Positions 6,522 to 37,957 of a stretch of 38,976 nucleotides of DNA are shown here, in pieces. The stretch comes from Clostridia bacterium (GTDB taxonomy: Bacteria > Bacillota > Clostridia > Oscillospirales > CAG-272). The notes under the pieces were generated by a model. The model was not told the origin of the DNA, did no database searches, and saw only the letters and a program-made list of their open reading frames with translations. The position numbers and the translations under genes were made by a program. Positions within the stretch are counted from its first letter, which is position 1. Every line of letters starts with the position of its first letter. The stretch is taken from positions 1-38,976 of the forward strand of contig JAGATW010000039.1 of NCBI GenBank assembly GCA_017621085.1, in the 5' to 3' direction.

Positions 6522-6534
6522 TTAAATGAAAAAA

Positions 6535-6564: not shown

Positions 6565-6583
6565 TGCTTTGTGTAAAGCTAAA

Positions 6584-7399: not shown

Positions 7400-7435
7400 A
7401 AAGCTCTCCTGAAGTAATTTGAATAATTTCAACTA

Positions 7436-17458: not shown

Positions 17459-17533
17459 GCTGGCGTGGCTCAATGGCAGAGCAGCTGATTTGTAATCAGC
17501 AGGTTGATGGTTCGACTCCGTTCGCCAGCTCCA
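17459..17533 (+). tRNA. tRNA-Thr (anticodon TGT)
   Basis: A full cloverleaf: acceptor GCTGGCG with CGCCAGC, anticodon stem CTGAT/ATCAG around TTTGTAA (anticodon TGT), T-arm with GGTTCGACTCC, discriminator T and an encoded CCA end. It reads ACA codons. Confidence 0.96.
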
Positions 17534-17548
17534 ATCTTGCAACGATAA

Positions 17549-17633
17549 GGGGGATTTCCCGAGCGGCCAAAGGGGGCAGACTGTAAATCTGTTGTCACTG
17601 ACTTCGGTGGTCCGAATCCACCATCCCCCACCA
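17549..17633 (+). tRNA. tRNA-Tyr (anticodon GTA)
   Basis: 85 bases with acceptor GGGGGAT/ATCCCCC, anticodon stem CAGA/TCTG with loop CTGTAAA (anticodon GTA), a long class II variable arm, discriminator A and an encoded CCA. It is 15 bases downstream of tRNA-Thr in the same transcript. Confidence 0.96.
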
Positions 17634-17833: not shown

Positions 17834-18035
17834 GGACACCAATCGGTGTCCTTTTTTGTTTGGTGGGGATGAGTCTTCGGACACCATTTTTGTCCCTTGA
17901 GGACAAAAATGTGGTTCGCTCTTTTGCCCAAAGTCGTTGTTAGGGGTCCTCAAAACGAAGAATGAGTTTTGGGGTTCTCGTGGGCTTGTTAGCATAAGAC
18001 GTGGGCAAAAGCCTCAGCTCTGCTGAGAATCCACC
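17834..18035 (+). repeat. Structured tandem repeat, unit 2
   Basis: The same order as unit 1: terminator hairpin GGACACC/GGTGTCC with T6, GTTTGGTGGGGATGAGTC, the TTTTTGTCC/GGACAAAAA hairpin, then a variable stem CTTTTGCCC/GGGCAAAAG enclosing GCTTGTTAGCATAAG, the CTCAGC/GCTGAG hairpin and GAATCCACC. The leading stem and the variable stem differ from unit 1 on both arms yet stay paired. Unit 2 has about 40 extra bases that form another hairpin (CCTCAAAAC with GTTTTGGGG). Confidence 0.8.
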
Positions 18036-18050: not shown

Positions 18051-18177
18051 CCAATCCGAAGGATTGGTATGTAATCACGACGTAGTCGTGTATCTCCCTT
18101 CGGATTGATTCCATACATCACTTCGTGATGATTCCATACCGCAACAAGTTGCGAATTCCATACAAGGCTGCGCCTTG
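18051..18177 (+). repeat. Palindrome array (five short hairpins with a shared spacer)
   Basis: Successive hairpins are CCAATCC/GGATTGG (18051-18067), CACGAC/GTCGTG (18076-18090), CATCAC/GTGATG (18116-18130), CGCAAC/GTTGCG (18140-18153) and CAAGGC/GCCTTG (18163-18177). The last three are separated by ATTCCATAC. An 11-bp outer pairing (CAATCCGAAGG at 18052 with 18097-18107) encloses the second hairpin. No coding potential is apparent. Confidence 0.85.
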
Positions 18178-18203
18178 ATTTGTTTGTGAATGTGTGATAT
18201 AAT
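18175..18203 (+). promoter_or_regulatory. Promoter at the end of the first palindrome array
   Basis: TTGATT at 18175-18180, whose first bases are the tail of the last hairpin, then 17 bases and TATAAT at 18198-18203 with an extended TGA. The same layout ends the second array at 18998-19026. It would drive the membrane protein gene at 18271 with a leader of about 60 bases. Confidence 0.7.
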
Positions 18204-19067: not shown

Positions 19068-19487
19068 ATGATTTACGTAAAAGGACAAACGCGGCTGCCA
19101 CCTGATGATGAAAAAAAGCTACTTGATGAATTGGAAAAATATCGTCTTGTGCGAAGCAGGACCGTTTATTGGGAAAGGCTTGATGAATGTCGCGAGGGCG
19201 AGGACACCTATGAGGACGAGTATTCCTTGATAGATACTGAAAATTGTCCCTTTGGAATTTTAATTAATATAAGTGACAAGGATTATAGCTTTGTTGGAAT
19301 AGACGTTGTACACAAATCAACAGAAAGCTGGAATGCAGGGCTTAACAAGGAAGAAACACATCTAATGTGTACTCTTTATGCCGACGGCACTAAAACAGGC
19401 TCATATTCATCAAGGTCCACATACGATAGCCCTAACAACTATGACGATGTAAAAATATCCTACTCCCTTCGTCGCATAGGCTGTTGA
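19068..19487 (+). CDS. Hypothetical soluble protein
   Basis: 139 residues; AAAGGAG lies 8 bases before the ATG. It has no signal peptide or membrane segment. It is rich in charged residues, with an acidic stretch in the first half (REGEDTYEDEYSLIDTE), then a predicted beta region (GILINISDKDYSFVGIDVVH) and a Ser/Tyr/Asp-rich end. I recognise no family. It is single, driven by the array-borne promoter and closed by the terminator at 19527. Confidence 0.7.
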   Translation: MIYVKGQTRLPPDDEKKLLDELEKYRLVRSRTVYWERLDECREGEDTYEDEYSLIDTENCPFGILINISDKDYSFVGIDVVHKSTESWNAGLNKEETHLMCTLYADGTKTGSYSSRSTYDSPNNYDDVKISYSLRRIGC

Positions 19488-19526
19488 TTTTGCTTGGAAA
19501 AGTCAAAAAACTATTTTTAAGAAAAA

Positions 19527-19564
19527 CCCTTACAAGACTTTATTGCCTTGTAAGGGGTATTTTT
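19527..19564 (+). terminator. Terminator after the hypothetical gene
   Basis: A stem of at least 9 bp (CCTTACAAG at 19528-19536 with 19547-19555, extended by one C-G pair), then GTATTTTTA. Confidence 0.75.
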
Positions 19565-19570
19565 ATTCAA

Positions 19571-19711
19571 TGCAGTAGATTTGCTCCTTTAAAATATCAA
19601 CAGCTTGCAGACCTTTTGTCAGTTGATAGAAGCGTTATGTCAAAGGAGCTTTGCAAAATGAGGAATGAGGGGCTTTTAGAGTTTAACAAAAGCAAATTCA
19701 AGCTGTTTTAA
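19571..19711 (+). pseudogene. C-terminal fragment of a Crp/Fnr-family regulator
   Basis: The translated fragment FAPLKYQQLADLLSVDRS, then VMSKELCKMRNEGLLEF and NKSKFKLF, matches the winged-helix end of clostridial Crp/Fnr regulators (the usual form is PFNRQQLADFLSVDRSA...SELSKMRNEGLI). The whole cyclic-nucleotide-binding domain is missing, and a terminator lies immediately upstream, so it is a decayed remnant and probably not expressed. The reading frame stays open back to 19484, but that part has no Crp similarity and no ribosome binding site. Confidence 0.75.
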
Positions 19712-19784: not shown

Positions 19785-19813
19785 TTGACTTAATATACAA
19801 TATAATGTATAAT
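19785..19813 (+). promoter_or_regulatory. Promoter of the tubulin-like operon
   Basis: TTGACT at 19785-19790, 17 bases, TATAAT at 19808-19813. The leader to the first ATG is about 90 bases and contains no obvious structure. Confidence 0.8.
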
Positions 19814-19908: not shown

Positions 19909-22677
19909 ATGGCAAAAGCATTATTATTGGGACTTGGTGGAATGGGAGGACGTATAGTTAATAACGTCATGACTGAGTTAAGGGAGGATAATATTGAAAT
20001 TGATGATAGCAAGTTTTGTTGCGCCGTTTTTGATACTAACACAGAGGATATGGATTTATTAGACGCAGCAGGAAATGGAATTCATATTATACCTACAAGC
20101 AAGGATAAGAACATAGGCTCGTACCTTAAGGCTTATGAAAAGGATAATATCAAGGCTTGGATGCCCACATCTACATTGCTGCGCCACGAGGAAATGCGTT
20201 GGGGCACATCTCAAATGAGAACAATGTCACGTCTTGCATTTTACGATGTAATTCAAAATAGGGATATATTAGATCTTGAAAGAGAAATAGAAAAGCTTTT
20301 AAATGGTCATGAGGAAAACTATATCAATGTTACAATTATATCATCCTTAGCGGGAGGCACCGGCTCAGGAATGCTTATACAGACTGCTCTTTGGGTAAGA
20401 GATCTTCTCGAGGATAGAAATTGCACTGTAACCATAAGAGGAATATTAGTACTTCCCGAAGCGCTTATTAAATGTGTTCGTCAGGTTGGTAATGACGAAA
20501 GAATGCGTGATAAAATTCGTGCTAACGCATATGCCACAATACGTGAATTGAATGCCATAACTAAAATAAGAACAGGTGTTTATAAGCCACAAAAAAGAGT
20601 ATGGCTTGACGGCTTTGCTGACAGCGAGCGCAAATATGAGTGTGAGGATGCATCCGTATTCGACTACGCATTTTTTGTGGATTGCGATATGGATGAAAAT
20701 AACAGAGATAGCATAGAGGATTATGAAAAATCCGTTGCACGACTTACATATATGCACATGTTAGCCCCTGCCAGCGATGGCGCATACACAAAGGAGGACA
20801 GCGCATACAGACAGCATCAATTAAGTAAGGAGCCGCTATATGGCTTGTGTGATACTGCCAAGGCGATTTATCCAACGGAATCAATTTTAGAGTATTGTAC
20901 CTTAAGAGCGATTAAGGATTCTTTAGTTAATAGCTGGAGAGCAATTGACCAAAGAATAGAAAATCAAGATGACAAGCAGTTAAGATACATTGAAAAATTT
21001 AACGAGTTATCTCAAAAGCAAGATTCAGACAACAAGCTTTTCCAAAAAATAAGAGCTGATATAATGAACTCACAAATGGAGCTTGGCAAGGAGATTTTAA
21101 CAAATAAAATAGATGATTTTTTAACATCTATTGGCACAAAAATATGGAGCTCAATAAAAAAGTTCAATATAGGTGAGCTGAACAAAATAAAAATCAGCAA
21201 GAAAAGGCAGGATTGGGTTGAAGATAAGGATGAGATAAAAAGCATTGAAAAAGCCAAAAATCTTGTCTGCGAAAAAAGAGAGCAAATTGCGTTTTTTGAA
21301 AAAACAGTTAGAACTCAAAGTGAATATATTGTAAAAGCATTAATAGAGGACATATGCCCCATTGATATGGGTAGGGTTGATATAAGCGATACATCTTCTG
21401 TTATGGGCTTATTTACAAAGAGAGACAATGAGGGACAATTATATTTCATTCACCCTATTGCTATGAGATATTTGATATACAAGCTTTTAAATGAGCTTGA
21501 TATGAAAATGCAAGAATTTACACAGCTTGAAGAAATAAAGGACAGGCTGCTTGATAACAAGCACGAGGCGGAGATGTTTGACAAAGATGCCTTGCTTTAT
21601 CTTGATAAAAAGCCTTTCTTAATGTCCACATCTGCATTTATTAAGAAATTTAAGGAGATATACTACGAGTTTAATCACGAACAGCATAAGCTTTGTTGTC
21701 AATATGTAGAAAAGATTATTATTTGCGAGCTGTCAAGAGAGCTTACGCACAGATTAGAGGTATTGTCTAAGGTTATAGAAAGCTTCTTTAATGGCCTTGA
21801 CAGGGTTTACAATAAAATAGAGGATGGGCTTTCTATCAACATAGATATGACAGAAAATTGTAGCCGAAACACCATATACATTTGTGGCTCAAGAAGGGAA
21901 AAGGAGGACTTTTATAAGTCACTTCATTTGAATGTAAGCAAGGGTAACAGGGAAATAAATAAGGCGATTGCCGATGCCTTGTACGGTCAGTTCTGCACAC
22001 TGAAAAATCCTAATGAGAACAATAACGCACCATATATGAATCGCAGTGCTATTGATATATACTACAAGGAATCTCTAAAGGTGTATAGAAATATCATAAT
22101 CAAGGATTATAGTGAGGAAATAGACCTTGATATTTATTCTGCTGTATGCAAGAGCGTTGACTTGGATTGCGAAAAAAAGTTTGAAAAGAATCTGGATGAC
22201 TTATCCGATTATGAAAACGTAAGCATAATGCATCGCTATCATTTAGATGCAATGAAGGATTTGGTTAACCGACTTAAAACTATTGGCATCCCGATTATTA
22301 CTAAGGATAATGAAAAGACAAATAATACCGGATATGGAGTTACCTTCTGGGGCTTTAGTCCAAAGTTAGTTGAAAGGTGTGATAAATTGGGTGAGATACT
22401 TGGAATAAATGTGTTATCTCAGCAAAACAACGCGTATTCCAAAAACGAGCTTAATTGCTATTGCTCCGTATATGGCTTTAAAGCAGATGGAGTTGACAAG
22501 CTTAATGAGCTTAAGGAGCACGAGCCGGATAACTATTATGCCGGCTACAAAAGAATAATAGACAGAATAAACAGCGACCTTGAATGCGGCAACAAGGACG
22601 CCTTAGTTCAAACCCCGCATCTTGACAAAACATGGCACGAAATTCTTCCATATATTTCATCAAAAAAGAAGGATTAA
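19909..22677 (+). CDS. Tubulin-like GTPase-family protein, copy 1
   Basis: 922 residues. The N-terminus has a Rossmann-like tubulin/FtsZ nucleotide fold: T1 loop GLGGMGGRIVN (8-18), a strand ending AVFDTNTEDM, T4-like GGTGSG (149-154) and the helix block RANAYATIRELNAI. The size and these motifs fit the bacterial tubulin-like family (Pfam Tubulin_2), not FtsZ or TubZ, which are half as long. The rest is helical and charged, with blocks kept in all three copies: GLFTK.D..G..YF.HPIA.RY, YLDKKPF and TPHLDKTWH (from 902). It stops 12 residues after that last motif. GGAGGA lies 5 bases before the ATG. It is the first gene of a three-gene operon with 21- and 27-base gaps. A cytoplasmic GTP-binding or filament-forming role is inferred from the fold only. 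Confidence 0.78.
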   Translation: MAKALLLGLGGMGGRIVNNVMTELREDNIEIDDSKFCCAVFDTNTEDMDLLDAAGNGIHIIPTSKDKNIGSYLKAYEKDNIKAWMPTSTLLRHEEMRWGTSQMRTMSRLAFYDVIQNRDILDLEREIEKLLNGHEENYINVTIISSLAGGTGSGMLIQTALWVRDLLEDRNCTVTIRGILVLPEALIKCVRQVGNDERMRDKIRANAYATIRELNAITKIRTGVYKPQKRVWLDGFADSERKYECEDASVFDYAFFVDCDMDENNRDSIEDYEKSVARLTYMHMLAPASDGAYTKEDSAYRQHQLSKEPLYGLCDTAKAIYPTESILEYCTLRAIKDSLVNSWRAIDQRIENQDDKQLRYIEKFNELSQKQDSDNKLFQKIRADIMNSQMELGKEILTNKIDDFLTSIGTKIWSSIKKFNIGELNKIKISKKRQDWVEDKDEIKSIEKAKNLVCEKREQIAFFEKTVRTQSEYIVKALIEDICPIDMGRVDISDTSSVMGLFTKRDNEGQLYFIHPIAMRYLIYKLLNELDMKMQEFTQLEEIKDRLLDNKHEAEMFDKDALLYLDKKPFLMSTSAFIKKFKEIYYEFNHEQHKLCCQYVEKIIICELSRELTHRLEVLSKVIESFFNGLDRVYNKIEDGLSINIDMTENCSRNTIYICGSRREKEDFYKSLHLNVSKGNREINKAIADALYGQFCTLKNPNENNNAPYMNRSAIDIYYKESLKVYRNIIIKDYSEEIDLDIYSAVCKSVDLDCEKKFEKNLDDLSDYENVSIMHRYHLDAMKDLVNRLKTIGIPIITKDNEKTNNTGYGVTFWGFSPKLVERCDKLGEILGINVLSQQNNAYSKNELNCYCSVYGFKADGVDKLNELKEHEPDNYYAGYKRIIDRINSDLECGNKDALVQTPHLDKTWHEILPYISSKKKD

Positions 22678-22698
22678 TTACAACAAAGGAGACGTAAA

Positions 22699-25600
22699 AT
22701 GGCAAAAAATCTATTAATTGGCTTGGGCGGAATGGGTGGACGTATTATTAATTGCGTATCGCACTATGTAAAAAAGAGCAATATAGACAACGACAATATG
22801 TATATAGCACTTGATAGATGTGCTCACGAATTGAGGCAATTAAATCAAGATAACAAAAGCATTATGATTTTTAATCCATGCAAGGACATACGCATTGGTG
22901 TGTACATAAGAGAATACGAAACAGATGGCGTTAATGAATGGATGCCAATAAACCCAATGCTCAAAGCTATGAATATGCTTGATGGATCCTCACAGGCAAG
23001 GATAAGGGCGCGACTTGCATTTTATGCTGCCAGTAAAAGTACCATGATATTAGAGCTTGAGGATAAGCTCAAAGGACTACTTGACGAAACAGACGAAGAA
23101 ATAAACGTTTATATTGTATCGTCCTTAGCAGGTGACTTTGGTGCAGGCACTCTTATTCCGTTGGCACTGTGGGTAAGACAGTATTTTGAGCGTCATAATG
23201 TTCCTGTACAAATAAAGGGCATGCTTATTACACCTGATGTTTTTATTAGAACCATTGCTCAAATCGGACGTGACGAAAGAGAATGTAAAATATTGCGAGC
23301 CAACGCTTATGCTACTATAAGAGAGCTAAATGCAATTACAAAAATAAAAACAAATGTCTTTAAGCCAAGCTTTCCTGTAAAAATTGATGAGGTAGGCTTT
23401 GACAGTAGCGAAAAGCAGGATGGCAAATGTGTATTTGATAGGGCGTACTTAATTGGGGATGTAACATCAAGTGGCTTGGCTCTTAATAGCATTTATGCTT
23501 ATGAAAAGGCAGTTGCGCAAATTGTATATGCGCAAATGTTTGCTCTTATTAAAAATGATTGGTACTATGAAGATGACGGATGGTTTAGATTTAAGGAGCC
23601 AAATGATGAGCCGCTTTACGGCTCTTGTGGCATAGCTAAAGCAATGTATCCCGTTGACTCTGTTTATGACTACTGTTCATTAAAGGCTGCATATGATTTC
23701 TTAAATACAGGCTGGAGAACAATTGATAAATATGTCGATTTAAGATTGGAGATAGAAAAGCAACGCGAATATGATGGAATGGTTATTACCAATCCACGCA
23801 AGGAGTATGTAAGACTGTTTGAAGAATTTTCAAATAGAAGCGAAGGAGCAAACAAGCTTTTTTACACAATTCGAAATGATGTAAATAACGAATTGCTTTT
23901 AAATGAAAATGACAGATGCGAAATAAGATTTTCTGATAAAATAGACGACTTCTTTGGTTCATTTGAGCAACGCATTGAGAGCTTTATGGAAAACGAGGCT
24001 CCCAATGAGCTATTTGAGATTAAGATTAAAGCTGATGAAGAAGAATGGGTTAATGATAAATATAATCTGTATTGCATAGAGGACGCAAAATGCTTTGTTA
24101 CAGATAAAAGAAACACTGTTAAAAAATTTATTCAAGCAATGGACACAAGCATCGACCGTATGGCAACAGATTTAGCAAACAGCATATGTCCGGTTGATAT
24201 GGGAAATACCGGTGAGGATAATGACGGTACTGTTTTAGGCTTGCTTACTAAAAAGGACGAAAACGGTCAAAGGTATTTCATTCATCCCATAGCTGTAAGA
24301 TACTTGCTATACAGGCTTATAGATATGCTTGAGGAGCAAAAGAAAATCGGAGGTATGCTTGAGAGTCTTCGCAATTCCGTTTCCTTTGACGAAGCTACTC
24401 AAAGATACAGGTCTGAAATTTATATGTTCGATAAAGCCAAGACATATGAGGAAGAGGATGCACTAACCTATCTTGACAAAAAGCCTTTGCTTATGTCCGA
24501 GGGCAGGTTTATTAAAAAGTACAAGGAATTGTATTATGAATTTAATGCGGATCAATATAAGTCATGCTGTTGCTACGCAGAAAAGTACTTAACCTACAAG
24601 ACATCTGTTATACTTTGCGAAAGATTAGAAATGCTTATTAAAATTGTTGAAAGCTTTTTTAATAGCATCGACAAGATATGCGATAAAATAGATGATAGAA
24701 TTTCTGAAAACATTAGAGAAACCGAAAATGGAGAGGGAACAGTTTACTACGTCTGTTCATCAGCACAAGATAAGGAATACTTATATAACACCCTTGAGCT
24801 TAGACTGGATGATAGCCACAAGGAATTAAACAAAGCTGTTGCCAAAGCCTTTTACGAACAGCTTTGCGTAAGAGAAAATCCTGACGCTGAGAACAATAAA
24901 CAATACATAGGCAAGAACATTCTTGGAATATTTACAAGTGAGCTTATCAATATCTATGAAAAAAGCATTTACAACAATTATAGCGAAAAAATAGACCTTG
25001 ACCTTTATTCAGCAGTTTGCAAAAGCTCCGATATGGAATTTGCAAGAGAAAATCCGGGGGATTGTGAAAATGAGGATACAAAGCACGAGCGTCATGTAGA
25101 TGCGATGAGGGCATGGGCTGCAAAGCTAAAGAAAAACAGTGCACCATTCTTGAATTACTTTGAAGATGATGAAAGAGACACCGATATATTTATAAGATTT
25201 TGGGGCTTCAATTCTGCACTTGCAGAAAGCTGTAGTGAGCTTGGCGAAATTCTTGGTGTACTAACAGAAAAACAAGCATCAAACGCTTACGACAAGCATG
25301 AGCTTGTCTGCTATCAGGCAAACTATGGTGTTATGGCAGAGAATATTGATGTGTTCGGAGAACAGCGTGAACATCAAAATAACAACTACTACAAAAGCTA
25401 CAAGGAAATTATTGATAAAATAAACAAGAACGTTTCCGAAGGTAATGAGGAAGCATTAGTGCGTACCCCACACATTGACAAAACCTGGCATCAAATCCTT
25501 CCATATATATCAAAAGCAACGCAAGAAAAAATGGATATGGAATTTTATCGTGCTTTTTGGTTAGCTCTTGCCTATGGTAAAATTTTAATAGACAAAAATG

Positions 25601-26127
25601 GTAATTATCAAATCAAAGTAAATCGTATAAACGCAATAGGTACAACATACCTCGAAATTGAAAATTTAGAGTATATGGGCAACCCCATTGCACACTACGA
25701 GGTTGACAAGCTTTTAAAGGCACTTAAGGTAAACTACCATTTTATTAGCTGTATGGAGGAGTGTACTCAAAAATTTGAAGACGAATGCAAAGCTAAATCT
25801 ATATTAAACCAAGTTGAGCTTTTGAATGGCAAAGCCGATTCAAAGGGCGAAGCTGTTGCGGGTGGAATTGCATCTGATAGTGATTATAATGCTCTTACGA
25901 TTTTGGTGAAGTACGTTAATTCTTCGGGATATGATGTAAAAGATGCTTTAATGCTCGTTAAATCACTGGAAAAAATTTGTAAAGAATTTATTGGAAGCAC
26001 TTTTAAAGACGCATCCCCAACCGATAAGGAAGAATGCGTTAATGACATTTTCTTTAAAATTTACAATGCTTGCTCTATGAGTAACAAGGACATTAAAGAA
26101 ATCGAGCATTGGAAAAAACTATGGTGA
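22699..26127 (+). CDS. Tubulin-like protein, copy 2, with degenerate nucleotide loop and C-terminal extension
   Basis: 1142 residues. It aligns along its length with copies 1 and 3: T1 loop GLGGMGGRIIN, RANAYATIRELNAI, GLLTKKDENG, YLDKKPL and TPHIDKTWH (from 923). Two nucleotide-site elements are altered. The T4-like loop reads GDFGAG (145-150) in place of GGTGSG, and the DTN after the second strand is replaced by DRC. After the TPHIDKTWH motif it continues for about 200 residues (starting KATQEKMDMEFYRAFWLAL) that copies 1 and 3 lack. It may be a non-hydrolysing partner of the other two. AAAGGAG lies 7 bases before the ATG. The middle position, intact frame and kept core motifs argue against a pseudogene. 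Confidence 0.75.
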   Translation: MAKNLLIGLGGMGGRIINCVSHYVKKSNIDNDNMYIALDRCAHELRQLNQDNKSIMIFNPCKDIRIGVYIREYETDGVNEWMPINPMLKAMNMLDGSSQARIRARLAFYAASKSTMILELEDKLKGLLDETDEEINVYIVSSLAGDFGAGTLIPLALWVRQYFERHNVPVQIKGMLITPDVFIRTIAQIGRDERECKILRANAYATIRELNAITKIKTNVFKPSFPVKIDEVGFDSSEKQDGKCVFDRAYLIGDVTSSGLALNSIYAYEKAVAQIVYAQMFALIKNDWYYEDDGWFRFKEPNDEPLYGSCGIAKAMYPVDSVYDYCSLKAAYDFLNTGWRTIDKYVDLRLEIEKQREYDGMVITNPRKEYVRLFEEFSNRSEGANKLFYTIRNDVNNELLLNENDRCEIRFSDKIDDFFGSFEQRIESFMENEAPNELFEIKIKADEEEWVNDKYNLYCIEDAKCFVTDKRNTVKKFIQAMDTSIDRMATDLANSICPVDMGNTGEDNDGTVLGLLTKKDENGQRYFIHPIAVRYLLYRLIDMLEEQKKIGGMLESLRNSVSFDEATQRYRSEIYMFDKAKTYEEEDALTYLDKKPLLMSEGRFIKKYKELYYEFNADQYKSCCCYAEKYLTYKTSVILCERLEMLIKIVESFFNSIDKICDKIDDRISENIRETENGEGTVYYVCSSAQDKEYLYNTLELRLDDSHKELNKAVAKAFYEQLCVRENPDAENNKQYIGKNILGIFTSELINIYEKSIYNNYSEKIDLDLYSAVCKSSDMEFARENPGDCENEDTKHERHVDAMRAWAAKLKKNSAPFLNYFEDDERDTDIFIRFWGFNSALAESCSELGEILGVLTEKQASNAYDKHELVCYQANYGVMAENIDVFGEQREHQNNNYYKSYKEIIDKINKNVSEGNEEALVRTPHIDKTWHQILPYISKATQEKMDMEFYRAFWLALAYGKILIDKNGNYQIKVNRINAIGTTYLEIENLEYMGNPIAHYEVDKLLKALKVNYHFISCMEECTQKFEDECKAKSILNQVELLNGKADSKGEAVAGGIASDSDYNALTILVKYVNSSGYDVKDALMLVKSLEKICKEFIGSTFKDASPTDKEECVNDIFFKIYNACSMSNKDIKEIEHWKKLW

Positions 26128-26154
26128 TTAAAAAACGAAAGGGAGAAATTTAAA

Positions 26155-28989
26155 ATGTCAAAGGAATTAATTATTGGCTTAGGTGGTACAGGCATACGAA
26201 TTGTTAATCTTGTGTCCGGAAAAATAGCAAAAAAAGAAAAAAATGCAAAGGAAAAGAAGCATTATTTTGCCGCTGTTGATACATCAAGCGGCGATATAGA
26301 GCGCTTTGAAAATGCAAATGACGATTCTGCATGTCTTGAGGTTTTTAAAGGTAAAAGTGTTAAAGAGTGTATAAACAAGTATAAAGAGGACGGCATAGAC
26401 GAATGGCTTCCTAATCCTTCTACCCTTACTGATGTAAAAATGTATGAGTTTGGTGGACAAGCAAGACTTGTTTCACGCCTTGCACTTTATGATTGCATTA
26501 AGGACGAGGCAATGGATGATTTAAGCAGACAGTTAGATAAGATAATTTACAGTCTTGAAAGCAAGCGTGTAAACGTTACAATTGTATCATCCATAGCAGG
26601 TGGTGCAGGGTCCGGAATGCTTATTCAAATAGCTATGTGGGTAAGAAAGTATTTTGAAAAAGAGGGCGTTAGCAGCTCTATAACCGGTATGCTAATTCTA
26701 CCTGAGTTATATATTCAAGCAATTAAGCTAATCGGTTGTGATGAAATACAGCGAAGAACGTTGCGCGCAAATGCTTACGCAACTATGAAAGAGCTAAATG
26801 CAATTAACAAGGTAACAATGAATTGCTATAAGCCATCTAAACCAATAAAGCTTGATGAGGTAGGATATAATAGCGATAGCGATGATAAAGCACCTTTGTT
26901 TGATAATACCTTTATCATGGATTATACATTAGGAAACAGAGCTAAGGACACAAGCATTGTAGATTATGAAGAAATGGTAGCTCGTGCTGTTTGCAACAGA
27001 GTATATGGCACTATGGCTGACGATATAAAATCAGAAGAAGACAATTTGCTTAGATTATTTAGCCAAAGCAAAGAGCCATTATATAACTCCTGTGGCACAT
27101 CAAAGGCAGTATATCCATATGAGTCTGTATTAGAATATTGTACATTAAAGGCATCAAAGGAAAGCCTGTTAAGTGGCTGGAGCTTAATAGACAAGCATAT
27201 AGCTAAGCTTGAAAAATCAGGTGAAAAAACAGACTATGGCTATATAGAAGCCTTTGACGAGCTTAGCAAAACCAAAAATCCTCAAAGCAATCTTCTTTAC
27301 AATATTAGAAACGATATAATGAACGAAAGCGTGATGCTTGACGGAGAAAAGGAAATTCTTTATCGTTCAGATAAAATAGATAATTTTATAAGGGCGCTTA
27401 ATTATATATTAAGGAAAGATATAGAGAAAAAGAATATTGGAAATTTATCCGACATTAAAATTAGAGAAGATGCTAATGAGTGGATAAAAGAAACAAAAGA
27501 CTTAAGCACAATATGGGATTTAAAGAAATTTGTTCTCTATAAAAGAGGAATGGTTGAAGCTTTTGTTGGTGATCTTGAAAGAGTAGCTCCTTCACTTGCA
27601 TTAGCCATTGCAGATAGAGTATGTCCTGTTAATATGGGCGAGCTTGATGAAGAAAACGAGCTTTCCATACTTGGCTTGTTCACCAAGAAGGATGAAGACG
27701 GTAAAAAATATTTTGTTCACCCCATAGCCATAAGATACTTGCTTTACAAGCTATTAAATAAGCTTAATGAAATGACTGAGAGTGAACAATGGCTTGAACA
27801 TATAAAGCGAAAAATTACATGCAATCCCAAAACCCAAAAATACGAAGAGGAAATCAGAACCTTTGACAAGCTGGAAACCTTTGACGAAGAGGAGGACGCT
27901 TACACATATCTTGATAAAAAGCCTTTCTTTAAGACAGAGGCGAAGTTTATAAAGGAATATAAGCTTGTTTACTATGAATACAATGAGCAATTAGCACACA
28001 ATTGTGAAAAATATGCAAATGAATTTTTATCAAACGAAATTGCAAAAATTCTTATTGACAGAGTAAAAACACTAATTAAGGTGGTTGAAGGACTTTTTGC
28101 AAAGCTTGATGTGATGTGTGGACTTTTTGATTATGGAATTGAAGATAACATAAAGAAGTGCAAAAGCACAGACTCTGTTATCAATGTTTATGCATCAAGT
28201 GAGGAAAAGGAGCATATATATAGCTCTCTTGGCTTAAAGGTAGATAATACCGATATAGCCTTTAATGAAAAAATTGTAAAAGCCTTGTATGGAAGCTTTT
28301 GCGCAAATGAAAATCCGGATGCGTTTGAAAACAGGTCATACATAGGCTTAAATGTAACATCAATTTTCAAAGAAGAGCTTGTTAAGTCCTATGGTGAAAT
28401 AATATCTTCTGATTATAATGATGAAATAGACCTTGATATTTACGAGGCACTTTGCCAAAGCCTTAAATTTAAGAAAAGTAAAGACGCTCAAGGAGAAGAA
28501 ACAGACGATATATTTGATTTTGAGCGAAGAAATGAAATTCGCATTGAGCAAGAAAAAGCATTTAAGGACTTGATTAAAGAGCTAATAAAGGACGGTGCGC
28601 CAAGCATATCTCTTAATGACGATGAAAATGATGATATGATAAATATGACATTGTGGGGCTTTAATCCTAAGCTTGCAAAGTCTTGTCAGTCACTTGGCGA
28701 TATTCTTAGGGTGAATGTAGAAACATGCCAAGACAAGACTTGCCCGAAAAATGAAATTATTTGTTATCAATTGGTTTATGGAATACCTGCTTATGAAATA
28801 AGTGCCTTTGACGAAACAAATGAAGAAGTCGGCGAAAGCTATTATCAAAGCTACAAATCAGTAGTTGACAAAATGATAGAGCGTGTTAATGCTGTAGGAG
28901 AGGATGCGCTTATTCAAACTCCGCACCTTGACAAAACCTGGCACAAAATTCTTCCATTCATTTCACCAAAAATGAATAAACCTGAATAA
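26155..28989 (+). CDS. Tubulin-like GTPase-family protein, copy 3
   Basis: 944 residues. T1 loop GLGGTGIRIVN, the strand AAVDTSSGDI and the T4-like loop GGAGSG (149-154) are intact or nearly so. The helix block RANAYATMKELNAI, the GLFTKKDEDG block, YLDKKPF and TPHLDKTWH (from 922) are shared with the other copies. Like copy 1 it ends soon after the last motif (23 residues from the T). Its central region is helical and highly charged. GGGAG lies about 8 bases before the ATG, and an intrinsic terminator follows at once, so this is the last gene of the operon. The same family call and limits apply as for copy 1: GTP binding is likely, function unknown. Confidence 0.78.
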   Translation: MSKELIIGLGGTGIRIVNLVSGKIAKKEKNAKEKKHYFAAVDTSSGDIERFENANDDSACLEVFKGKSVKECINKYKEDGIDEWLPNPSTLTDVKMYEFGGQARLVSRLALYDCIKDEAMDDLSRQLDKIIYSLESKRVNVTIVSSIAGGAGSGMLIQIAMWVRKYFEKEGVSSSITGMLILPELYIQAIKLIGCDEIQRRTLRANAYATMKELNAINKVTMNCYKPSKPIKLDEVGYNSDSDDKAPLFDNTFIMDYTLGNRAKDTSIVDYEEMVARAVCNRVYGTMADDIKSEEDNLLRLFSQSKEPLYNSCGTSKAVYPYESVLEYCTLKASKESLLSGWSLIDKHIAKLEKSGEKTDYGYIEAFDELSKTKNPQSNLLYNIRNDIMNESVMLDGEKEILYRSDKIDNFIRALNYILRKDIEKKNIGNLSDIKIREDANEWIKETKDLSTIWDLKKFVLYKRGMVEAFVGDLERVAPSLALAIADRVCPVNMGELDEENELSILGLFTKKDEDGKKYFVHPIAIRYLLYKLLNKLNEMTESEQWLEHIKRKITCNPKTQKYEEEIRTFDKLETFDEEEDAYTYLDKKPFFKTEAKFIKEYKLVYYEYNEQLAHNCEKYANEFLSNEIAKILIDRVKTLIKVVEGLFAKLDVMCGLFDYGIEDNIKKCKSTDSVINVYASSEEKEHIYSSLGLKVDNTDIAFNEKIVKALYGSFCANENPDAFENRSYIGLNVTSIFKEELVKSYGEIISSDYNDEIDLDIYEALCQSLKFKKSKDAQGEETDDIFDFERRNEIRIEQEKAFKDLIKELIKDGAPSISLNDDENDDMINMTLWGFNPKLAKSCQSLGDILRVNVETCQDKTCPKNEIICYQLVYGIPAYEISAFDETNEEVGESYYQSYKSVVDKMIERVNAVGEDALIQTPHLDKTWHKILPFISPKMNKPE

Positions 28990-28993: not shown

Positions 28994-29025
28994 AAAAAAA
29001 TAGAGGGCTTGTCCCTCTATTTTTT
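28994..29025 (+). terminator. Terminator of the tubulin-like operon
   Basis: AAAAAATAGAGGG, loop CTTGT, CCCTCTATTTTTT: a stem of 7 G/C-containing pairs extended by A-T pairs, ending in T6. Confidence 0.88.
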
Positions 29026-29062: not shown

Positions 29063-31120
29063 TTATTTGTATGAAACAGTATCTTCACCTACATATTCAA
29101 TAGCTGTGCCATCAAAGATGTAGCCACGAAGAATAAACGGCGATTCATAGTGGCTTTGTGGTATTCCTGTAATTGAATACTCAACGTAGCCATAATCCTT
29201 GGCTTCAAGAGGCTTAAATAAAACCTTGTTGTTAACAGCTGAAACAACACCGTCGTTAACTACTAATGGGCTTCCTTCAACGTTTGCCTTTGCAACTGCA
29301 AAAACGCCAAAGCTAAAGGTAATTTCCTTTGCCTCACCATAGCTCTTAATTAATTCACGGTTAATACCAAGCTTAAATACTATGCTGCCTGTTGTTTCTG
29401 AGAAGGAGTAGCCATAATCTACAACTAAGGATGGTGCGATTGTTGGGTCAGCATTGTAGTCACACTGTGGACAGTAGCTATCTATTCTACCCTCGCTTGC
29501 ATAACCGTTTTCATATGAGTAGGTATCCTGCCATTGGTGACCGCCAAGGCTTGGAGTATAAACATATACTTCCTTTGCACAAACGTAGCAATACTTGGAG
29601 TAAACACCGCTTGTTTCACAGGATGGCTTAATTTCATCATATCTTGTAAGGTCCTTTTCGCACTGATGCTCGTGAGCTGTAATAACAAATTCCTGGAAGT
29701 CAAGACAGTTACCGGTATTACCCTTTGCGCTGAGAACTGTTATTTTTATTGACTTAACAAGCTTGTCAACGCAATCAACAGCAATAGAGCTTCCGTCTGT
29801 TACTGTAATGTCACCCTTTTGAAAAGTAACTACGTTTTCACCCTTTTCGTTAAAGAATTCGATTTTTGCCGCATTGTAGTTGGACCAAGCATAGAATTTA
29901 ACACCTAAAACGTAAAATTCTTCATTAAATGTAATTGTAATAGAGCTGCCAGAGGGCGCCCACCAGCCGCCGGGGTTTTCCTGTGACCAGCTTGCGTTAA
30001 CTGTGTTTCCGTCAAAAAGCTTTTTCCAGTCGCGCTTGTCGGAAGGAGTGCCCTTTAAATCCTCAACAACTGAATATATCTGGTCAAGACCAATGATAAA
30101 CTTGTTATCTACCATTGTTGCCAAGGGAAGCTCCTCTGTGTATGTATCGGAGCATCTTGAACAGGTAAATGTCTTTTCACCCGGAGTTACAACGGATGAA
30201 TGCTTTGTTATAACACCCTCGTCATATTCGTGACCTAATGGGTCAACCTCTTCATCCTTGTAGGTCTTATCACAGTCCTTGTCTGTACAAGTATAGAGTA
30301 TATAACCACTCTCTGTACAGGTTGGCTCAACTAATTTTCCATCATCCCAGTTGTGACCAACAGCAGGAAGCTTTTCTTCCTTTGTGCCGCCGCATACGCT
30401 ACAAGTGTAGGTCTTAATACCGGAGGATTCTTCGCTTGGCTCAAGAGTTACGCTACCCTCGTCCCAGGAGTGATTGCCTGTTGCAGGAATAATATCGGTT
30501 TTTTCCTTGCCACAGAATGTACACATATATTTACCTTCACCGTCCTTACCGCAGGTAGCACCTGTTACGGTGTCGGTTAACTCATATGTGCAGTCGTGTA
30601 CTGTGCTACCGTAGGTTTCAACCTCCCAGATAGCAAGCTGGTTGTTCCAACCGCAGTTAACTGTTATGGCAATTGAAATAATTGGCGCTTCAGGAGCAAT
30701 AACTACCTCAATTTCGCCGTTTGTGTTGTGAGCCTGCTCGTAAATTGTTGTGCCTGCGGCGTCGGACATTTTTACTGTGATTTTAAAATTGTTCTTTGTA
30801 ACCTCATCCCATGAGCCTACGAGTGAGCCTGCGGTTGTTGAGCCTTTACCGTTAACAACAATGATAACCTTATCAATCTGCATGTTTTCCTCGTATCTTA
30901 AGGTTACGGTATAGCTGCCTTCTTTGTGAGATGAGGCGTTACCCTTTTCACGGTTACCGTCGGTCAAGGCACTAAGTGAGCCTGTAACTGTCCAACAGCT
31001 TGAGTTTGTTGTAAGCTCAGCCTTGTTTGCAATGTTTTGTTGAGCTGCCATTATACTAAATGCAAGGGTTGAGCATAAAACCAATGCAAATACTATGGCA
31101 AGCATTATCTTCTTTTTCAT
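29063..31120 (-). CDS. Large secreted protein with two discoidin-like regions and Cys-motif repeats
   Basis: 685 residues. A signal peptide (about 1-25, ending SIMA) has no anchor or sorting motif after it, so the protein is probably released or held by non-covalent binding. Order: a jelly-roll/F5-F8-like beta region (about 30-170, SALTDGNREKG then LAIWEVETYG); four Cys-motif repeats (about 175-335, each with C..C and a GH/NH before the next); a second discoidin-like region (about 350-480, KLFDGNTVNASWSQ); another Cys-motif block (PSC..SG...KYCYVC); and a C-terminal beta domain starting DYGYSFSET. This last domain is clearly related to the end of the protein at 31356. AAGGAG precedes the ATG. 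Carbohydrate or surface binding is plausible from the discoidin-like parts but is an inference. Confidence 0.78.
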   Translation of the reverse strand: MKKKIMLAIVFALVLCSTLAFSIMAAQQNIANKAELTTNSSCWTVTGSLSALTDGNREKGNASSHKEGSYTVTLRYEENMQIDKVIIVVNGKGSTTAGSLVGSWDEVTKNNFKITVKMSDAAGTTIYEQAHNTNGEIEVVIAPEAPIISIAITVNCGWNNQLAIWEVETYGSTVHDCTYELTDTVTGATCGKDGEGKYMCTFCGKEKTDIIPATGNHSWDEGSVTLEPSEESSGIKTYTCSVCGGTKEEKLPAVGHNWDDGKLVEPTCTESGYILYTCTDKDCDKTYKDEEVDPLGHEYDEGVITKHSSVVTPGEKTFTCSRCSDTYTEELPLATMVDNKFIIGLDQIYSVVEDLKGTPSDKRDWKKLFDGNTVNASWSQENPGGWWAPSGSSITITFNEEFYVLGVKFYAWSNYNAAKIEFFNEKGENVVTFQKGDITVTDGSSIAVDCVDKLVKSIKITVLSAKGNTGNCLDFQEFVITAHEHQCEKDLTRYDEIKPSCETSGVYSKYCYVCAKEVYVYTPSLGGHQWQDTYSYENGYASEGRIDSYCPQCDYNADPTIAPSLVVDYGYSFSETTGSIVFKLGINRELIKSYGEAKEITFSFGVFAVAKANVEGSPLVVNDGVVSAVNNKVLFKPLEAKDYGYVEYSITGIPQSHYESPFILRGYIFDGTAIEYVGEDTVSYK

Positions 31121-31355: not shown

Positions 31356-32531
31356 TTAGTTATTTGAAATGTCATTATAAGACTTAGTTATAGCATCAAA
31401 GGTAGTATCCTCGCCTATGTAATAAATTTCGTTTCCGTCAAATACATACAAGGAAAGGAAGAATTGTGTATCAACGTGATTTTCACCAAAGCCCTTTATT
31501 TTGTAATTCACTAAGTAATGGCTCTTGTCAGCTAAGCTCTTGCAAATAACAGAGCTTGAAGCACCCTCAATTCCGTTTTCGCCAAGGACTAAAGGATTGC
31601 CCTCGGGATATGCAAGCTTAGATGCTGCAACTGTACCAAAATCAATAGGGTATTCAGCTAAGCTGTTGTATAGCTCAATAGCCTCATAATTAATCAATAC
31701 ACCTAATTGAATACTGTAACCGCTATAGGTTGAGGATGAGTAGCCAAGAGATGTAAACAAAGGACCAATATCAGTAATTGGACTGTCCTGTGTATCACAG
31801 GTTTGGCAAATGCTACCATAGTAGCCCGGATTTGTAAATCCGTTTCTGAATACAACTTTTTCCGTCATTGTGTGGTTGCCACTTGGAGGAACAGGAATTT
31901 CAGAGCCCTCACCACAAATGCAAAGCATTCTGACTAAGCCCTCGATTGCGCAGGTTGGTGGATAAATCAGACCGTCATTAATGGAAAAATCGTGATTGTG
32001 GTCGTGGAAAATTTCAAGCTCGGAATACTTATGAGTTCTTTGATTGCCATTCCACTTTAATTCTGTTACAGTAATTACAAGAGTTCTAACAAGCTTTTCC
32101 TCTCCCGGCAAAACCTCAAAAACTTTTACAGGCTCCGGCACCTCTGTTTGACCTACATTGCCATCAAAGGTTGTTTGAGCAGAGAGGGTTGCATTACCCT
32201 GACTGTCATAGCCAACAATGGAGCTTATGGTCCAGTTACCTGCACCATAGGCAAGCATTTTTGAAACCAAAATATCATATTTAAACTCAATTGTCACAGT
32301 ATCACCTTGAGCGCCAAACCAGTCCTTACCGTCGCTGTAAATACCGGCAGTTTCCAAATTGCCGTCAAACAAATTCCAAACAAAATCCTTACGAATGTTT
32401 GTTTCATTTGCGTAAATATTTTCAATATCGTCCTGAGTTATTTGCACAACCTCGGCACAAATGCTAAATGTAAACATTAGTAATGCTACTAAGGTTAGCA
32501 CAAGTGTAAGCATTAGTTTACGTGATTTCAT
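31356..32531 (-). CDS. Secreted protein related to the adjacent 685-residue protein
   Basis: 391 residues from the ATG at 32531, selected because GGGGTG lies about 8 bases upstream; an in-frame GTG 9 bases before it overlaps that site. A signal peptide (about 1-26, ending SICA) is followed by a discoidin-like region (about 30-180, NLFDGNLETAGIYSDG), one Cys-motif block (PPTCAIEGLVRMLCICG and SICQTC) and a C-terminal beta domain. The beta domain shares a layout with the neighbour: LGYS...SG, then GV/GI.IN.E.I..Y, FG..A..K, G.PLV, and YVFDG..I.YIGEDT. It has its own promoter and terminator, so the two paralogues are separately expressed. Function unknown. Confidence 0.78.
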   Translation of the reverse strand: MKSRKLMLTLVLTLVALLMFTFSICAEVVQITQDDIENIYANETNIRKDFVWNLFDGNLETAGIYSDGKDWFGAQGDTVTIEFKYDILVSKMLAYGAGNWTISSIVGYDSQGNATLSAQTTFDGNVGQTEVPEPVKVFEVLPGEEKLVRTLVITVTELKWNGNQRTHKYSELEIFHDHNHDFSINDGLIYPPTCAIEGLVRMLCICGEGSEIPVPPSGNHTMTEKVVFRNGFTNPGYYGSICQTCDTQDSPITDIGPLFTSLGYSSSTYSGYSIQLGVLINYEAIELYNSLAEYPIDFGTVAASKLAYPEGNPLVLGENGIEGASSSVICKSLADKSHYLVNYKIKGFGENHVDTQFFLSLYVFDGNEIYYIGEDTTFDAITKSYNDISNN

Positions 32532-32564
32532 ATATTTCACCCCAAAAAATATTTTAACATATTA

Positions 32565-32684: not shown

Positions 32685-32722
32685 ATAGTCATAGAGTAAT
32701 GTATCAAGGGGGATATAATTTT

Positions 32723-34171
32723 GTGAAAATCAGTGAAAGACACTTGACAATGCTTTTTGACTTTTATGAGCTTACAATGGGCAGAGGTTACTTTAATTCT
32801 GAAATAAAAAATAAGATTGCTTATTTTGACGTATTCTTCAGAAAGGTGCCTGATGGTGGTGGCTATGCCATTTGCGCAGGACTTGAGCAAATTATAGAGT
32901 ATATCAAATCAATTAAGTTTGAAAAGGAGGACATTGACTACCTTCGCTCAAAGGGGATTTTTGACGAGGAGTTTTTAAATTACCTTTCAACCTTTAAATT
33001 TACAGGTGATATTTGGGCAGTGCCTGAGGGAACAGTTGTTTTTCCAAACGAGCCAATTATGACCGTACGCGCGCCTGCCATTGAAGCACAGTTTATTGAA
33101 ACCTTTGTTCTTCTTATATTCAACCACCAATGCTTAGTTGCAACCAAGGCATCAAGAATTGTACGTGCTGCACAGGGACGTGCTGTGTCCGAATTTGGCT
33201 CACGTCGTGCTCACGGACCTGACGCTGCCATATATGGCGCACGTGCTTCATATATAGGTGGCTGTAATTCAACTGCTTGTACACTTTCCGATATTATGTT
33301 TGGTGTTCCCGCAGGTGGCACTATGGCACACTCCTGGGTACAAATGTTTGATACTGAATATGAGGCATTTAAAACCTACTGTCAGCTTTATCCTAAGAGC
33401 CCAACACTTTTAATTGATACCTACAATGTTTTAGAAAGCGGACTACCTAATGCTATTAAGGCATTTACCGAGGTTTTAAGTGAAGAGGAAAGAAAGAATT
33501 GTGCCGTTCGTCTTGACTCGGGTGATATTACCTATCTTACTAAAAAGATAAGAAAAAGACTTGATAACGCAGGACTTACAGGATGCAGAATAACTGTTTC
33601 CAATTCCCTTGATGAGTACATTATAAGAGACATTATAATGCAGGGCGCTTGTGTTGACGCATTTGGTGTAGGCGAAAGAATGATTACATCAAAGAGTGAG
33701 CCTGTTTTTGGCTGCGTTTACAAGCTTGCCGCAGTTGAAAATGATGAGGGAAAAATTACACCTAAAATCAAAATCAGCGAAAACATTGTTAAAATCACAA
33801 CCCCTGATTTTAAAAAGCTGTATCGCTTTTACTCAAAGGACACAGGCAAGGCAGAGGCGGACCTTTTAACAATTCACGATGAGGTTATTAATAAGGACGA
33901 GCCTTATGAGCTGTTTGACCCTGTTCACGTATGGAAGCGCAAGACTATGGAAAATTATGAGCTCCGTGAGCTTCTTGTACCTATTTTTGTAAAGGGTGAG
34001 TGCGTTTATAATTCTCCTTCCGTTAAGGAAATAAGAGATAACTGTAAGCGTGAGCTTGAATCTATGTGGGACGAGGTATTAAGATTTGAAAACCCACATA
34101 ACTATTACGTTGACCTTTCACAAAGGCTTTGGGACGAAAAGCACGAGCTGTTAAAAAAGAGAAATAGATAG
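32723..34171 (+). CDS. pncB: Nicotinate phosphoribosyltransferase
   Basis: 482 residues from the GTG at 32723, chosen because AAGGGGG lies about 10 bases upstream; the ATG at 32699 precedes that site and sits only about 8 bases from the predicted transcript start. Family hallmarks are visible: FDFYELTMGRGYF at the N-terminus, FGSRRAHGPDAA, IGGCNSTA, the GGTMAHSW histidine region and VRLDSGD in the phosphate-binding barrel. The enzyme joins nicotinate to PRPP, giving nicotinate mononucleotide for NAD salvage. It is first in a tight five-gene run with ymdB, galK, a YycJ homologue and rsmG. Confidence 0.92.
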   Translation: MKISERHLTMLFDFYELTMGRGYFNSEIKNKIAYFDVFFRKVPDGGGYAICAGLEQIIEYIKSIKFEKEDIDYLRSKGIFDEEFLNYLSTFKFTGDIWAVPEGTVVFPNEPIMTVRAPAIEAQFIETFVLLIFNHQCLVATKASRIVRAAQGRAVSEFGSRRAHGPDAAIYGARASYIGGCNSTACTLSDIMFGVPAGGTMAHSWVQMFDTEYEAFKTYCQLYPKSPTLLIDTYNVLESGLPNAIKAFTEVLSEEERKNCAVRLDSGDITYLTKKIRKRLDNAGLTGCRITVSNSLDEYIIRDIIMQGACVDAFGVGERMITSKSEPVFGCVYKLAAVENDEGKITPKIKISENIVKITTPDFKKLYRFYSKDTGKAEADLLTIHDEVINKDEPYELFDPVHVWKRKTMENYELRELLVPIFVKGECVYNSPSVKEIRDNCKRELESMWDEVLRFENPHNYYVDLSQRLWDEKHELLKKRNR

Positions 34172-34180
34172 GAATTTAAT

Positions 34181-34978
34181 TTGAAAAATTTAAGAATACT
34201 TGCTCTTGGCGACATAGTTGGGCCAAGAAGTGTAGAATATTTACGCAAAAGCCTTTGGAAAATAAGAGCCAAGCATAAAATCGATTTTGTAGTTGCAAAC
34301 GGTGAAAACGCAAGTGAGCCAAACGGAATTGATAAGCAAACAGCCCAAGTGCTGTTTGACAGTGGCGTTGATGTTATTACAACAGGCAATCACATTTGGC
34401 GCAAATCGGTAGTATTTAGCTATCTTGATGATGAGGAATTGATTTTGCGTCCCTTAAATTACCCAAGCGAAAACCCGGGGCACGGAGATGTAATAGCTAA
34501 GGTAAACGGATATTCCGTCCTTGTTATGAACGTAATGGGTCAGGCTTATATGGATGTAGCCGCATCCCCCTTTGAAGCGGTTAGGTCTTGCCTTGAAAGA
34601 AATAAAGGAAAATACGATTTTGCAATCCTTGATATTCACGCAGAGGCAACAGGAGAAAAAAAGGCTATTGCATATGATTTTTGCCATGACATATCAATTA
34701 TTTATGGTACACATACCCACGTTCAAACAAACGATGCTCAAATTTTAGAAAACCATTGCGGTTATATTACCGACCTTGGTATGTGTGGAGATAATGACAG
34801 CATACTTGGCGTTGACAAGGTGGCGGTTATACACAAAATGAAAACAAAAATGCTTTCAAAATTCGACTTTGCAAAAAACGGAGAAATAGAATGCGACGGT
34901 GGAATTTTTGAAATTAACACAAGCACCTTTAAGTGCGAAAATTGTGAAATTATTAAATTTACAGGAGAAATAGTATGA
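34181..34978 (+). CDS. ymdB: YmdB-family metallophosphodiesterase
   Basis: 265 residues from a TTG start, with AGGAA a few bases upstream. The TIGR00282/YmdB fold is evident: GDIVG (Asp11), NGENAS (Glu42, Asn43), TGNHIW (Asn70), DIHAEATGEK and GTHTHVQTND, which together hold two metal ions. Bacillus YmdB hydrolyses 2',3'-cyclic nucleotides and affects biofilm and sporulation decisions; the same activity is likely here. It starts 9 bases after pncB ends and overlaps galK by 4 bases, so it is translationally coupled to its neighbours. Confidence 0.9.
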   Translation: MKNLRILALGDIVGPRSVEYLRKSLWKIRAKHKIDFVVANGENASEPNGIDKQTAQVLFDSGVDVITTGNHIWRKSVVFSYLDDEELILRPLNYPSENPGHGDVIAKVNGYSVLVMNVMGQAYMDVAASPFEAVRSCLERNKGKYDFAILDIHAEATGEKKAIAYDFCHDISIIYGTHTHVQTNDAQILENHCGYITDLGMCGDNDSILGVDKVAVIHKMKTKMLSKFDFAKNGEIECDGGIFEINTSTFKCENCEIIKFTGEIV

Positions 34979-36255: not shown

Positions 36256-37070
36256 TGATAGACGTATATACCTTATTTTCAGGCTCAAGCGGAAACTGTG
36301 TATATGTAAAAAATGATGATACAGAAATTCTAATTGATGCAGGCAGGAGCTGTGGCGCTATTGAAAAGTCACTTAGCGCACTTGGCACAAGCCTTAGAAG
36401 AATTAAAGCAATTTTTGTAACTCACGAGCATTCCGACCACACCCAAGGGCTTGAAGTAATTTCAAAAAAATTCCAAATTCCCGTATATATGACCTCCCCT
36501 TCCTACCACAACTATGTTAGGGGAGGGTCTTATCTTCAAAGGATGGCAATTTCCTGTGAGATAGAAAAGGAAAAGGATATAGGCAGCTTAAATATCAAAT
36601 CCTTTCCCATCCCACATGATAGCGCCCAAAATGTTGGCTATGTAATTTCATCAAGGGACGATACCTTTGGTATTGCCACAGATATAGGACATCCAACAGA
36701 GATAATAGCTGATAATTTATCAAAATGCAAGAGAATAATTATAGAGTCCAACCACGATATAGAAATGGTGGAAAAAGGACCGTACCCAAGGTTTTTAAAG
36801 GACAGAATTTTGTCCCAAAGCGGACATTTGTCAAATGACAAGTGCGCTCAGCTTTGCGCATATCTTTGCGACAAGGGCGTTTGTGGCATTACTCTTGCTC
36901 ACTTAAGTCAGGAAAACAATTTGCCAAAGCTTGCCTACGGACAGGTAAGAGAGCACTTAAATGCTTGTGGCTTTGAAAATGTACCCTTAAAGGTAGCCTT
37001 TGCAGACATTACTGTTAATGTAACAAACGAGTATAGCTACCCATATCCTATGCTACATATTGGCAAGTGA
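36255..37070 (+). CDS. YycJ/WalJ-like metallo-beta-lactamase-fold hydrolase
   Basis: 271 residues from the ATG at 36255, which shares a base with the galK stop codon. The metal-binding motif THEHSDH (56-62) is complete, with later ligands in PHDSAQNVGY, ATDIGH and LAHLSQENN. The N-terminus (SGSSGNCVYV) is typical of the YycJ/WalJ group, which in other Firmicutes is tied to cell-wall control and DNA repair. It is probably a cytoplasmic nuclease or phosphodiesterase; the substrate is unknown. It is translationally coupled to galK. Confidence 0.88.
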   Translation: MIDVYTLFSGSSGNCVYVKNDDTEILIDAGRSCGAIEKSLSALGTSLRRIKAIFVTHEHSDHTQGLEVISKKFQIPVYMTSPSYHNYVRGGSYLQRMAISCEIEKEKDIGSLNIKSFPIPHDSAQNVGYVISSRDDTFGIATDIGHPTEIIADNLSKCKRIIIESNHDIEMVEKGPYPRFLKDRILSQSGHLSNDKCAQLCAYLCDKGVCGITLAHLSQENNLPKLAYGQVREHLNACGFENVPLKVAFADITVNVTNEYSYPYPMLHIGK

Positions 37071-37113
37071 GCTTTTGAAGATAGGCAAAATAATAACTAA
37101 TAAGGAATAAAAA

Positions 37114-37842: not shown

Positions 37843-37957
37843 CCCATAAATTACAATATCGTTAACACATTGTTCATAATATTATGGTAAAATGGTATAT
37901 ATTTTTTATCGCTTTAAAGCGCTAAAGTAAATTATCCTCTTGAAAGGAATAATATTA

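Follow-up and report, generated by a model that had tools for sequence, protein, structure and literature searches.

The tubulin-like gene array and its surroundings

The window analysed here, 38,976 nucleotides long, is a complete contig of a 1.91-Mb metagenome-assembled genome (MAG), 65% complete, of a gut bacterium. Three adjacent large genes lie on its + strand, as the initial annotation had described: gene A (19909-22677; 922 aa), gene B (22699-26127; 1142 aa) and gene C (26155-28989; 944 aa). The A-B and B-C gaps measure 21 bp and 27 bp, contain no gene, and each carries a GGAG or GGGAG motif resembling a ribosome-binding site. All three proteins scored far above the cut-off of 27 bits against the Pfam family Tubulin_2 (PF13809), with 146 bits for A, 119 for B and 171 for C over residues of about 5-337, which bears out the earlier assignment to a tubulin/FtsZ-type fold family. 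Tubulin/FtsZ (PF00091) gave sub-threshold matches to A (E 3.1e-5) and C (E 1.4e-5); the Pfam scan gave none in B. Pairwise BLASTP comparisons of A, B and C showed 38-41% identity over nearly the full length (E 0.0), so that their likeness is not due to chance.

Tubulin_2 corresponds to FtsZl1, a known but little-studied bacterial family (Makarova and Koonin, 2010; PMC2875224), and A, B and C are near-full-length paralogues of this family. According to the available portions of that paper, most but not all FtsZl1 operons include a gene with a von Willebrand A (vWA) domain, a membrane-remodelling role is predicted, and the T6-H7 region is unidentifiable, from which a novel type of filament formation or, less likely, none was suggested; a 2023 paper, as far as its accessible text goes, set FtsZl1/Tubulin_2 apart as scattered and divergent (PMC9871819). 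Members of the family are large, with a coiled coil in the middle and a largely helical C-terminal part. The array resembles FtsZl1 in its N-terminal Tubulin_2 domain, its T1 loop, its T4 loop to a degree that differs between the copies, and its size, 922-1142 aa being close to the large FtsZl1 type of about 1000 aa, and a vWA cluster lies elsewhere in the genome of the window. Unlike the FtsZl1 genes in the available parts of PMC2875224, where no such tandem arrays are described, it consists of three tandem copies without partner genes, in long and short forms and with one degenerate T4 loop. No paper among the open-licence literature matches listed deals with FtsZl1 arrays or long/short pairs. 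The family is already described and the array is an apparently unreported variant of it; the recurrence of long and short forms had not been claimed in the initial annotation.

The likeness to FtsZ is one of superfamily, with T1 and T4 loops in common. A profile of the array matched FtsZ weakly (E 0.055) and locally, with T1 and T4 placed together by the local alignment; a global profile comparison gave no useful alignment, and a sequence-profile search of the PDB returned 0 hits. A separate FtsZ is encoded in the same genome (G000, contig C125), hence the array need not replace it.

The best match of a promoter scan (11/12), TTGACT-17-TATAAT, lies some 96 bp upstream of A, at 19785-19813 (+). 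A related array, L023, described below, has the same promoter type at a similar distance (6734-6762) from its first gene. After C, a hairpin with A and T runs at 28995-29025 (+) is a probable bidirectional terminator; the scan listed it on the - strand only, and the letters show that a T run ends the + strand as well. Since promoter and terminator counts in the window were no higher than in shuffled sequences, both elements are argued from position and conservation alone. The single promoter-like site, the hairpin and the lack of intervening genes agree with the arrangement first proposed, and the three co-directional genes probably form a co-transcribed operon. Just upstream of the promoter, the gap that precedes A also contains an open frame (19487-19708, +) that resembles the DNA-binding end of a Crp/Fnr-type regulator and is probably a gene remnant.

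The locus is marked by tRNA-Thr and tRNA-Tyr genes (17459-17633, +), which lie outside the system. Two short sequences after tRNA-Tyr, at about 17940-17981 and 18097-18180, match many places in genomes of the same genus, above all G176. The scanned flanks encode FeoB, a heavy-metal P-type ATPase, a metal-sensitive repressor, an iron-dependent repressor, an ABC transporter ATPase, NAPRTase, a YmdB-like protein, a galactokinase-like protein, a metallo-beta-lactamase-fold protein, GidB, citrate synthase and two secreted-looking proteins. The latter follow the array on the - strand at 29063-31120 and 31356-32540, the first with a match to F5/8 type C below the cut-off. A functional link of the array to its flanking genes was considered, and none was seen among the scanned neighbours. 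The two ORFs on each side of the array gave nothing over the Pfam cut-off; none of the 22 scanned window proteins other than A-C had a listed vWA match, and no integrase was seen among the window proteins scanned. In a PADLOC search of A, B, C and the two preceding ORFs, 0 families matched at E up to 1.

A fourth copy, partner genes and the locus in other genomes

A fourth, full-length copy, D (winD; 1173 aa), is encoded on contig C12 of the same genome and matches B over nearly its full length at 43% identity. It adjoins a 789-aa protein with two transmembrane (TM)-like segments, and two ORFs of C12 have matches to the C-terminal portion of a vWA protein from a related locus, L024. Contig C86 ends within a vWA gene, and because the ends of C86 and C12 overlap by exactly 141 bp, this gene very probably continues into C12. 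Its N-terminus carries a hydrophobic segment and the motif DDSYS, which fits the DxSxS metal-site motif named in the available text of the FtsZl1 paper (PMC2875224). Contig C116 encodes a 1735-aa protein, 55% identical to the L024 protein with a Transglut_core domain (E 8.6e-8). No vWA gene was seen beside the array; D has one.

Within the D cluster, the ORFs at 6121-6690 and 6714-7403 (-) of L005 are each 33% identical to the L024 vWA protein, and a 189-aa protein is an apparent duplicate of only the TM and C-terminal part of the vWA protein. The first 310 bp of C12 (L005 1-310) are 87% identical, and so not identical, to a stretch of C116 (in the region L087 6127-11514); parts of the operon therefore seem to be duplicated, and the genome probably holds a second copy of the two-TM and transglutaminase-like genes, as judged from these sequences.

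Detailed examination covered 19 loci and the G stretches named in this text. An order of vWA-sized gene (871-975 aa), tubulin, 737-806-aa protein and 1328-1773-aa protein was found in 11 of the 19 fetched loci, a count made on size and order; contig ends interrupt several of the other loci. Domain tests covered L024 alone, and tests for TM segments L024 and L025. The gene expanded in the array is probably the tubulin of this vWA, tubulin, two-TM and transglutaminase-like envelope operon.

The closest parallel to the array is locus L023, from a roe deer colon MAG (RGIG4287), where the ABC gene (95% identity), its neighbour (73%), tRNA-Thr and tRNA-Tyr are followed, about 340 bp after the tRNA pair, by a tandem array of at least four copies. 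The first three measure 935, 1037 and 1133 aa, and the fourth, truncated where the contig stops, at least 217 aa. That genome has four Tubulin_2 matches, all within the array; no copy outside it and no vWA or transglutaminase-like partner were detected in this MAG, which has no stated completeness.

These observations bear on the reading of the array as a stand-alone cytoplasmic tubulin-like filament system that departed from the vWA operon and relies on no proteins but its own paralogues. The initial annotation had concluded as much from the lack of partners nearby, and the lack of a vWA match among the 22 scanned proteins upholds its premise; the conclusion as worded is only partly right, as D, vWA, two-TM and transglutaminase-like partners are encoded elsewhere in the genome. 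The L023 genome, with all four detected copies in the array, argues against dependence on partners, but it is a MAG without stated completeness, and the tubulin belongs to a four-gene cluster in the 11 of 19 loci. On balance we find such independence rather unlikely.

The same-genus genome G089 has the P-type ATPase and repressor genes from upstream of the array, the tRNA pair and, from the downstream side, a homologue of the secreted proteins; neither the array nor the ABC pair lies between them. One homologue of the secreted-looking proteins stands there right after the tRNA pair, and the segment corresponding to 32699-38974 of the window is inverted relative to the pair (L069), a local rearrangement beside the array. 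No match to the copy alignment was obtained in G027, G089 or G176 of this genus, none to PF13809 in G027 or G089, and both partner proteins were absent from all three at E 0.001. In a weak check, 15 other genomes of the genus yielded nothing to PF00091 beyond at most one FtsZ.

In wider surveys, whose sets overlap, the share of genomes with a PF13809 match over the cut-off was 33 of 394 for the order, 11 of 391 for the class and 11 of 398 for the phylum, the genome of the window being included each time. It was the only surveyed genome with more than two Tubulin_2 matches; the L023 genome has four. Recurrence of multi-copy operons among homologues was borne out in part: L023 has at least four copies and copy pairs exist in three other lineages, while arrays of at least three copies were seen only in the window genome and the related L023.

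A phage or plasmid origin was considered and rejected. None of the 52 viral-contig stretches that matched the pattern was confirmed as a relative. With C alone as the query, tblastn found a 958-codon open frame in one unannotated 'UNVERIFIED' 9.8-kb phage record and one gene of an Azospirillum plasmid, neither of which we read as evidence for mobility of the array.

In the tree, A-D of the window genome and the four L023 copies formed one clade (support 100/100), which indicates a lineage-specific expansion. A paired with L023_1 (100/100), B with L023_3 (99/98) and C with the partial row L023_4p (100/99); L023_2 had no window counterpart. The L041 tubulin, whose frame is open, was omitted from alignments and trees, and L023_4p, L033, L074 and L075 from the second tree. 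A and L023_1 share 84-85% identity (Nei-Gojobori, NG86, dN 0.076, dS 0.674), whereas the B and C pairs share 53% and 51%, with dS values of 1.46 and 1.40 that are near saturation; for two neighbour genes compared between window and L023, dS was 0.93 and 0.79. NG86 dN/dS was 0.11 for A, 0.26 for B and 0.29 for C (217 codons), values that are rough because dS is near saturation. We read A as the true orthologue of L023_1, and its ratio points to purifying selection. Simple orthology of B and C to their L023 counterparts is improbable, given identities of 51-53% and dS above that of A and of the neighbour genes; their divergence probably reflects differential loss from a larger ancestral array or much faster evolution.

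Such a history would also fit an array under birth and death, for example in a biological conflict or variation system where divergent copies are kept as targets or attackers change. The patchy occurrence in the order, the contrast between A (85% identical between the MAGs, dS 0.67) and the far more divergent B and C, the unmatched L023_2 and the array-free site of G089 speak in its favour, but PADLOC had no match, no integrase was seen among the scanned window proteins, 0 of the 52 viral-contig candidates were confirmed, and dN/dS, albeit rough near saturation, was below 0.3 in all three pairs. We regard this explanation as unlikely.

Nucleotide-binding loops and the long and short forms

The FtsZl1 T4 core, GGTG(S/T/A)G, is intact in A (GGTGSG; 20353-20370, +), altered at one place in C (GGAGSG; 26599-26616, +) and absent from B, where the position reads GDFGAG (23131-23148, +). 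The GG-GSG loop earlier ascribed to all three genes therefore holds for A, is modified in C and fails for B, and the predicted B protein has lost the consensus nucleotide-binding T4 loop.

The form GGTG[SA]G is found in A, D, L023_1, L023_2, L023_4p, L036_1 and both copies each of G254 and G271, and departures in B, C, L023_3 (GATGSG) and L036_2 (GAAGSG). Among the 13 copies that share their cluster with a paralogue, 4 thus depart, vs 0 of 19 other relatives, the latter including D and two outgroup rows (Fisher P 0.02), and for the nine copies of window, L023 and L036 only, P is 0.006 vs the other relatives; these values are indicative only, as the rows are related, some closely, and relatedness is uncorrected. 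The pattern is weakened by the mildness of the change in C, by the Azospirillum relative L095, which also reads GATGSG, and by the intact loops of all four G254 and G271 copies. The farther relatives looked up have GGTG[SA]G except L016, where no loop of that type was found.

The copies also differ at the other end. By alignment, B and D retain a C-terminal region of ~200 aa, the one part missing from A and C; in B this region comprises about 199 aa (25528-26124, +) and contains no Pfam domain over the cut-off. A, C and L023_1 stop 5-7 residues past the conserved TPHLDKTWH..LPYIS, and L036_2 nine past it, whereas B, D, L023_2 and L023_3 extend roughly 200 aa further. Three other genomes show the same arrangement. 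L036, from goat cecum, carries copies of 1137 and, next, 945 aa with 52% identity; the 985-aa copy of G254 aligns to a 1142-aa copy over 12-1001 (59%), with one 152-codon ORF between; and in G271 a 1005-aa copy aligns to a 1183-aa copy over 4-1003 (60%), about 16 kb away. Both the G254 and the G271 tubulin clusters have vWA genes. The predicted proteins therefore fall into long and short forms, which occur together in five genomes of four lineages (window, L023, L036, G254 and G271), and what a short copy lacks relative to its long paralogue is in each case only a C-terminal stretch of about 140-220 aa.

Two further pairs were rejected. The adjacent pair of G051 (1272 and 914 aa) is homologous only over the N-terminal ~360 aa, at 24%, and the G1153 pair (496 and 548 aa, 51% identical) was excluded from the long/short counts owing to weak Tubulin_2 matches; it lies in tandem on the - strand of L138, at 1056-2546 and 2688-4334. 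In G271, a transglutaminase-like stretch (L068 3623-3991; 29% over 133 aa) lies just before the short tubulin copy.

A single origin of the short form was rejected: in a tree of 24 rows built without the C-terminal columns, the starred branches require two changes or more. The C-terminal loss in A and C may have been one shared event or two, support for joining them being 25. G254 and G271 are absent from that tree; since each of their short copies matches its own long copy at 59-60%, these short copies probably arose separately.

Lost segments and lost T4 residues would also be expected of ordinary duplicates with no special heteromeric function, kept for dosage or as partly decaying copies of the operon tubulin. 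To the C-terminal loss in A and C may be added L023_2, which has a gap near residue 505 and falls about 100 aa short of L023_3. Decay of this kind nevertheless sits poorly with reading frames of A, B and C that are all open over 922-1142 codons, with dN/dS well under 1 and A conserved at 85%, and with the like C-terminal loss in other lineages, and among the readings weighed here we give it little credence.

A possible heteromeric scaffold

It is well known that alpha- and beta-tubulin, and likewise BtubA and BtubB, are paralogous subunits that co-polymerise, and that the nucleotide sites of tubulin are unequal. For the array, which belongs to a different family and is known here from sequence, they serve as an analogy only. 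The recurrent long/short pairs hint at a scaffold made of different subunits, and we put forward, as a tentative possibility held with less than even confidence, a heteromeric, GTP-regulated filament or scaffold of the cytoplasm that combines GTP-binding with degenerate, and docking with core, subunits. A, B and C would co-assemble in the cytoplasm under the membrane. A, for which hydropathy shows no TM-like segment, would be a GTP-binding core subunit, as perhaps would C, and B, the degenerate subunit, would use its C-terminal region to dock the polymer to partners in the membrane. These partners would be supplied in trans by the D operon of the window genome, and A would be a fixed subunit among other positions that turn over quickly. 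What speaks most strongly against the supply in trans is the L023 genome, in which no partners were detected.

For one relative, the Synechocystis Tubulin_2 protein Sll0445, studied as a gene cluster with Sll0446 and Sll0447, a membrane-linked role is suggested: according to the accessible text of PMC9880817, it occurs in complexes with proteins of the photosystem and of pilus assembly, and phototaxis is impaired when it is interrupted. Unlike the array, Sll0445 has FtsA-like and DivIC-like neighbours and a motility and photosystem phenotype in that account (PMC9880817).

The recurrence of long and short forms also invites a broader, more doubtful reading: FtsZl1 would repeatedly evolve heteromeric polymers, each with a full-length membrane-docking subunit and one or more core subunits that are shortened at the C-terminus and in some cases have a dead nucleotide site. 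By a corollary that we hold no more firmly, the three-copy array of the window and the four-copy array of L023 would be the most elaborate multi-tubulin scaffold of this kind, with fixed and fast-changing positions.

Within the tubulin superfamily, FtsZl1 is a little-studied and very divergent branch, whose polymerisation was left unsettled by the 2010 paper. The recurrent pairing of long and short copies is the part of these findings that deserves the attention of specialists: it amounts to a natural experiment in which about the last 140-220 aa can be lost when a full copy is present, and the pairs are ready-made material for tests of hetero-assembly. If the proposal is true, multi-subunit tubulin-like polymers would have evolved several times in bacteria.
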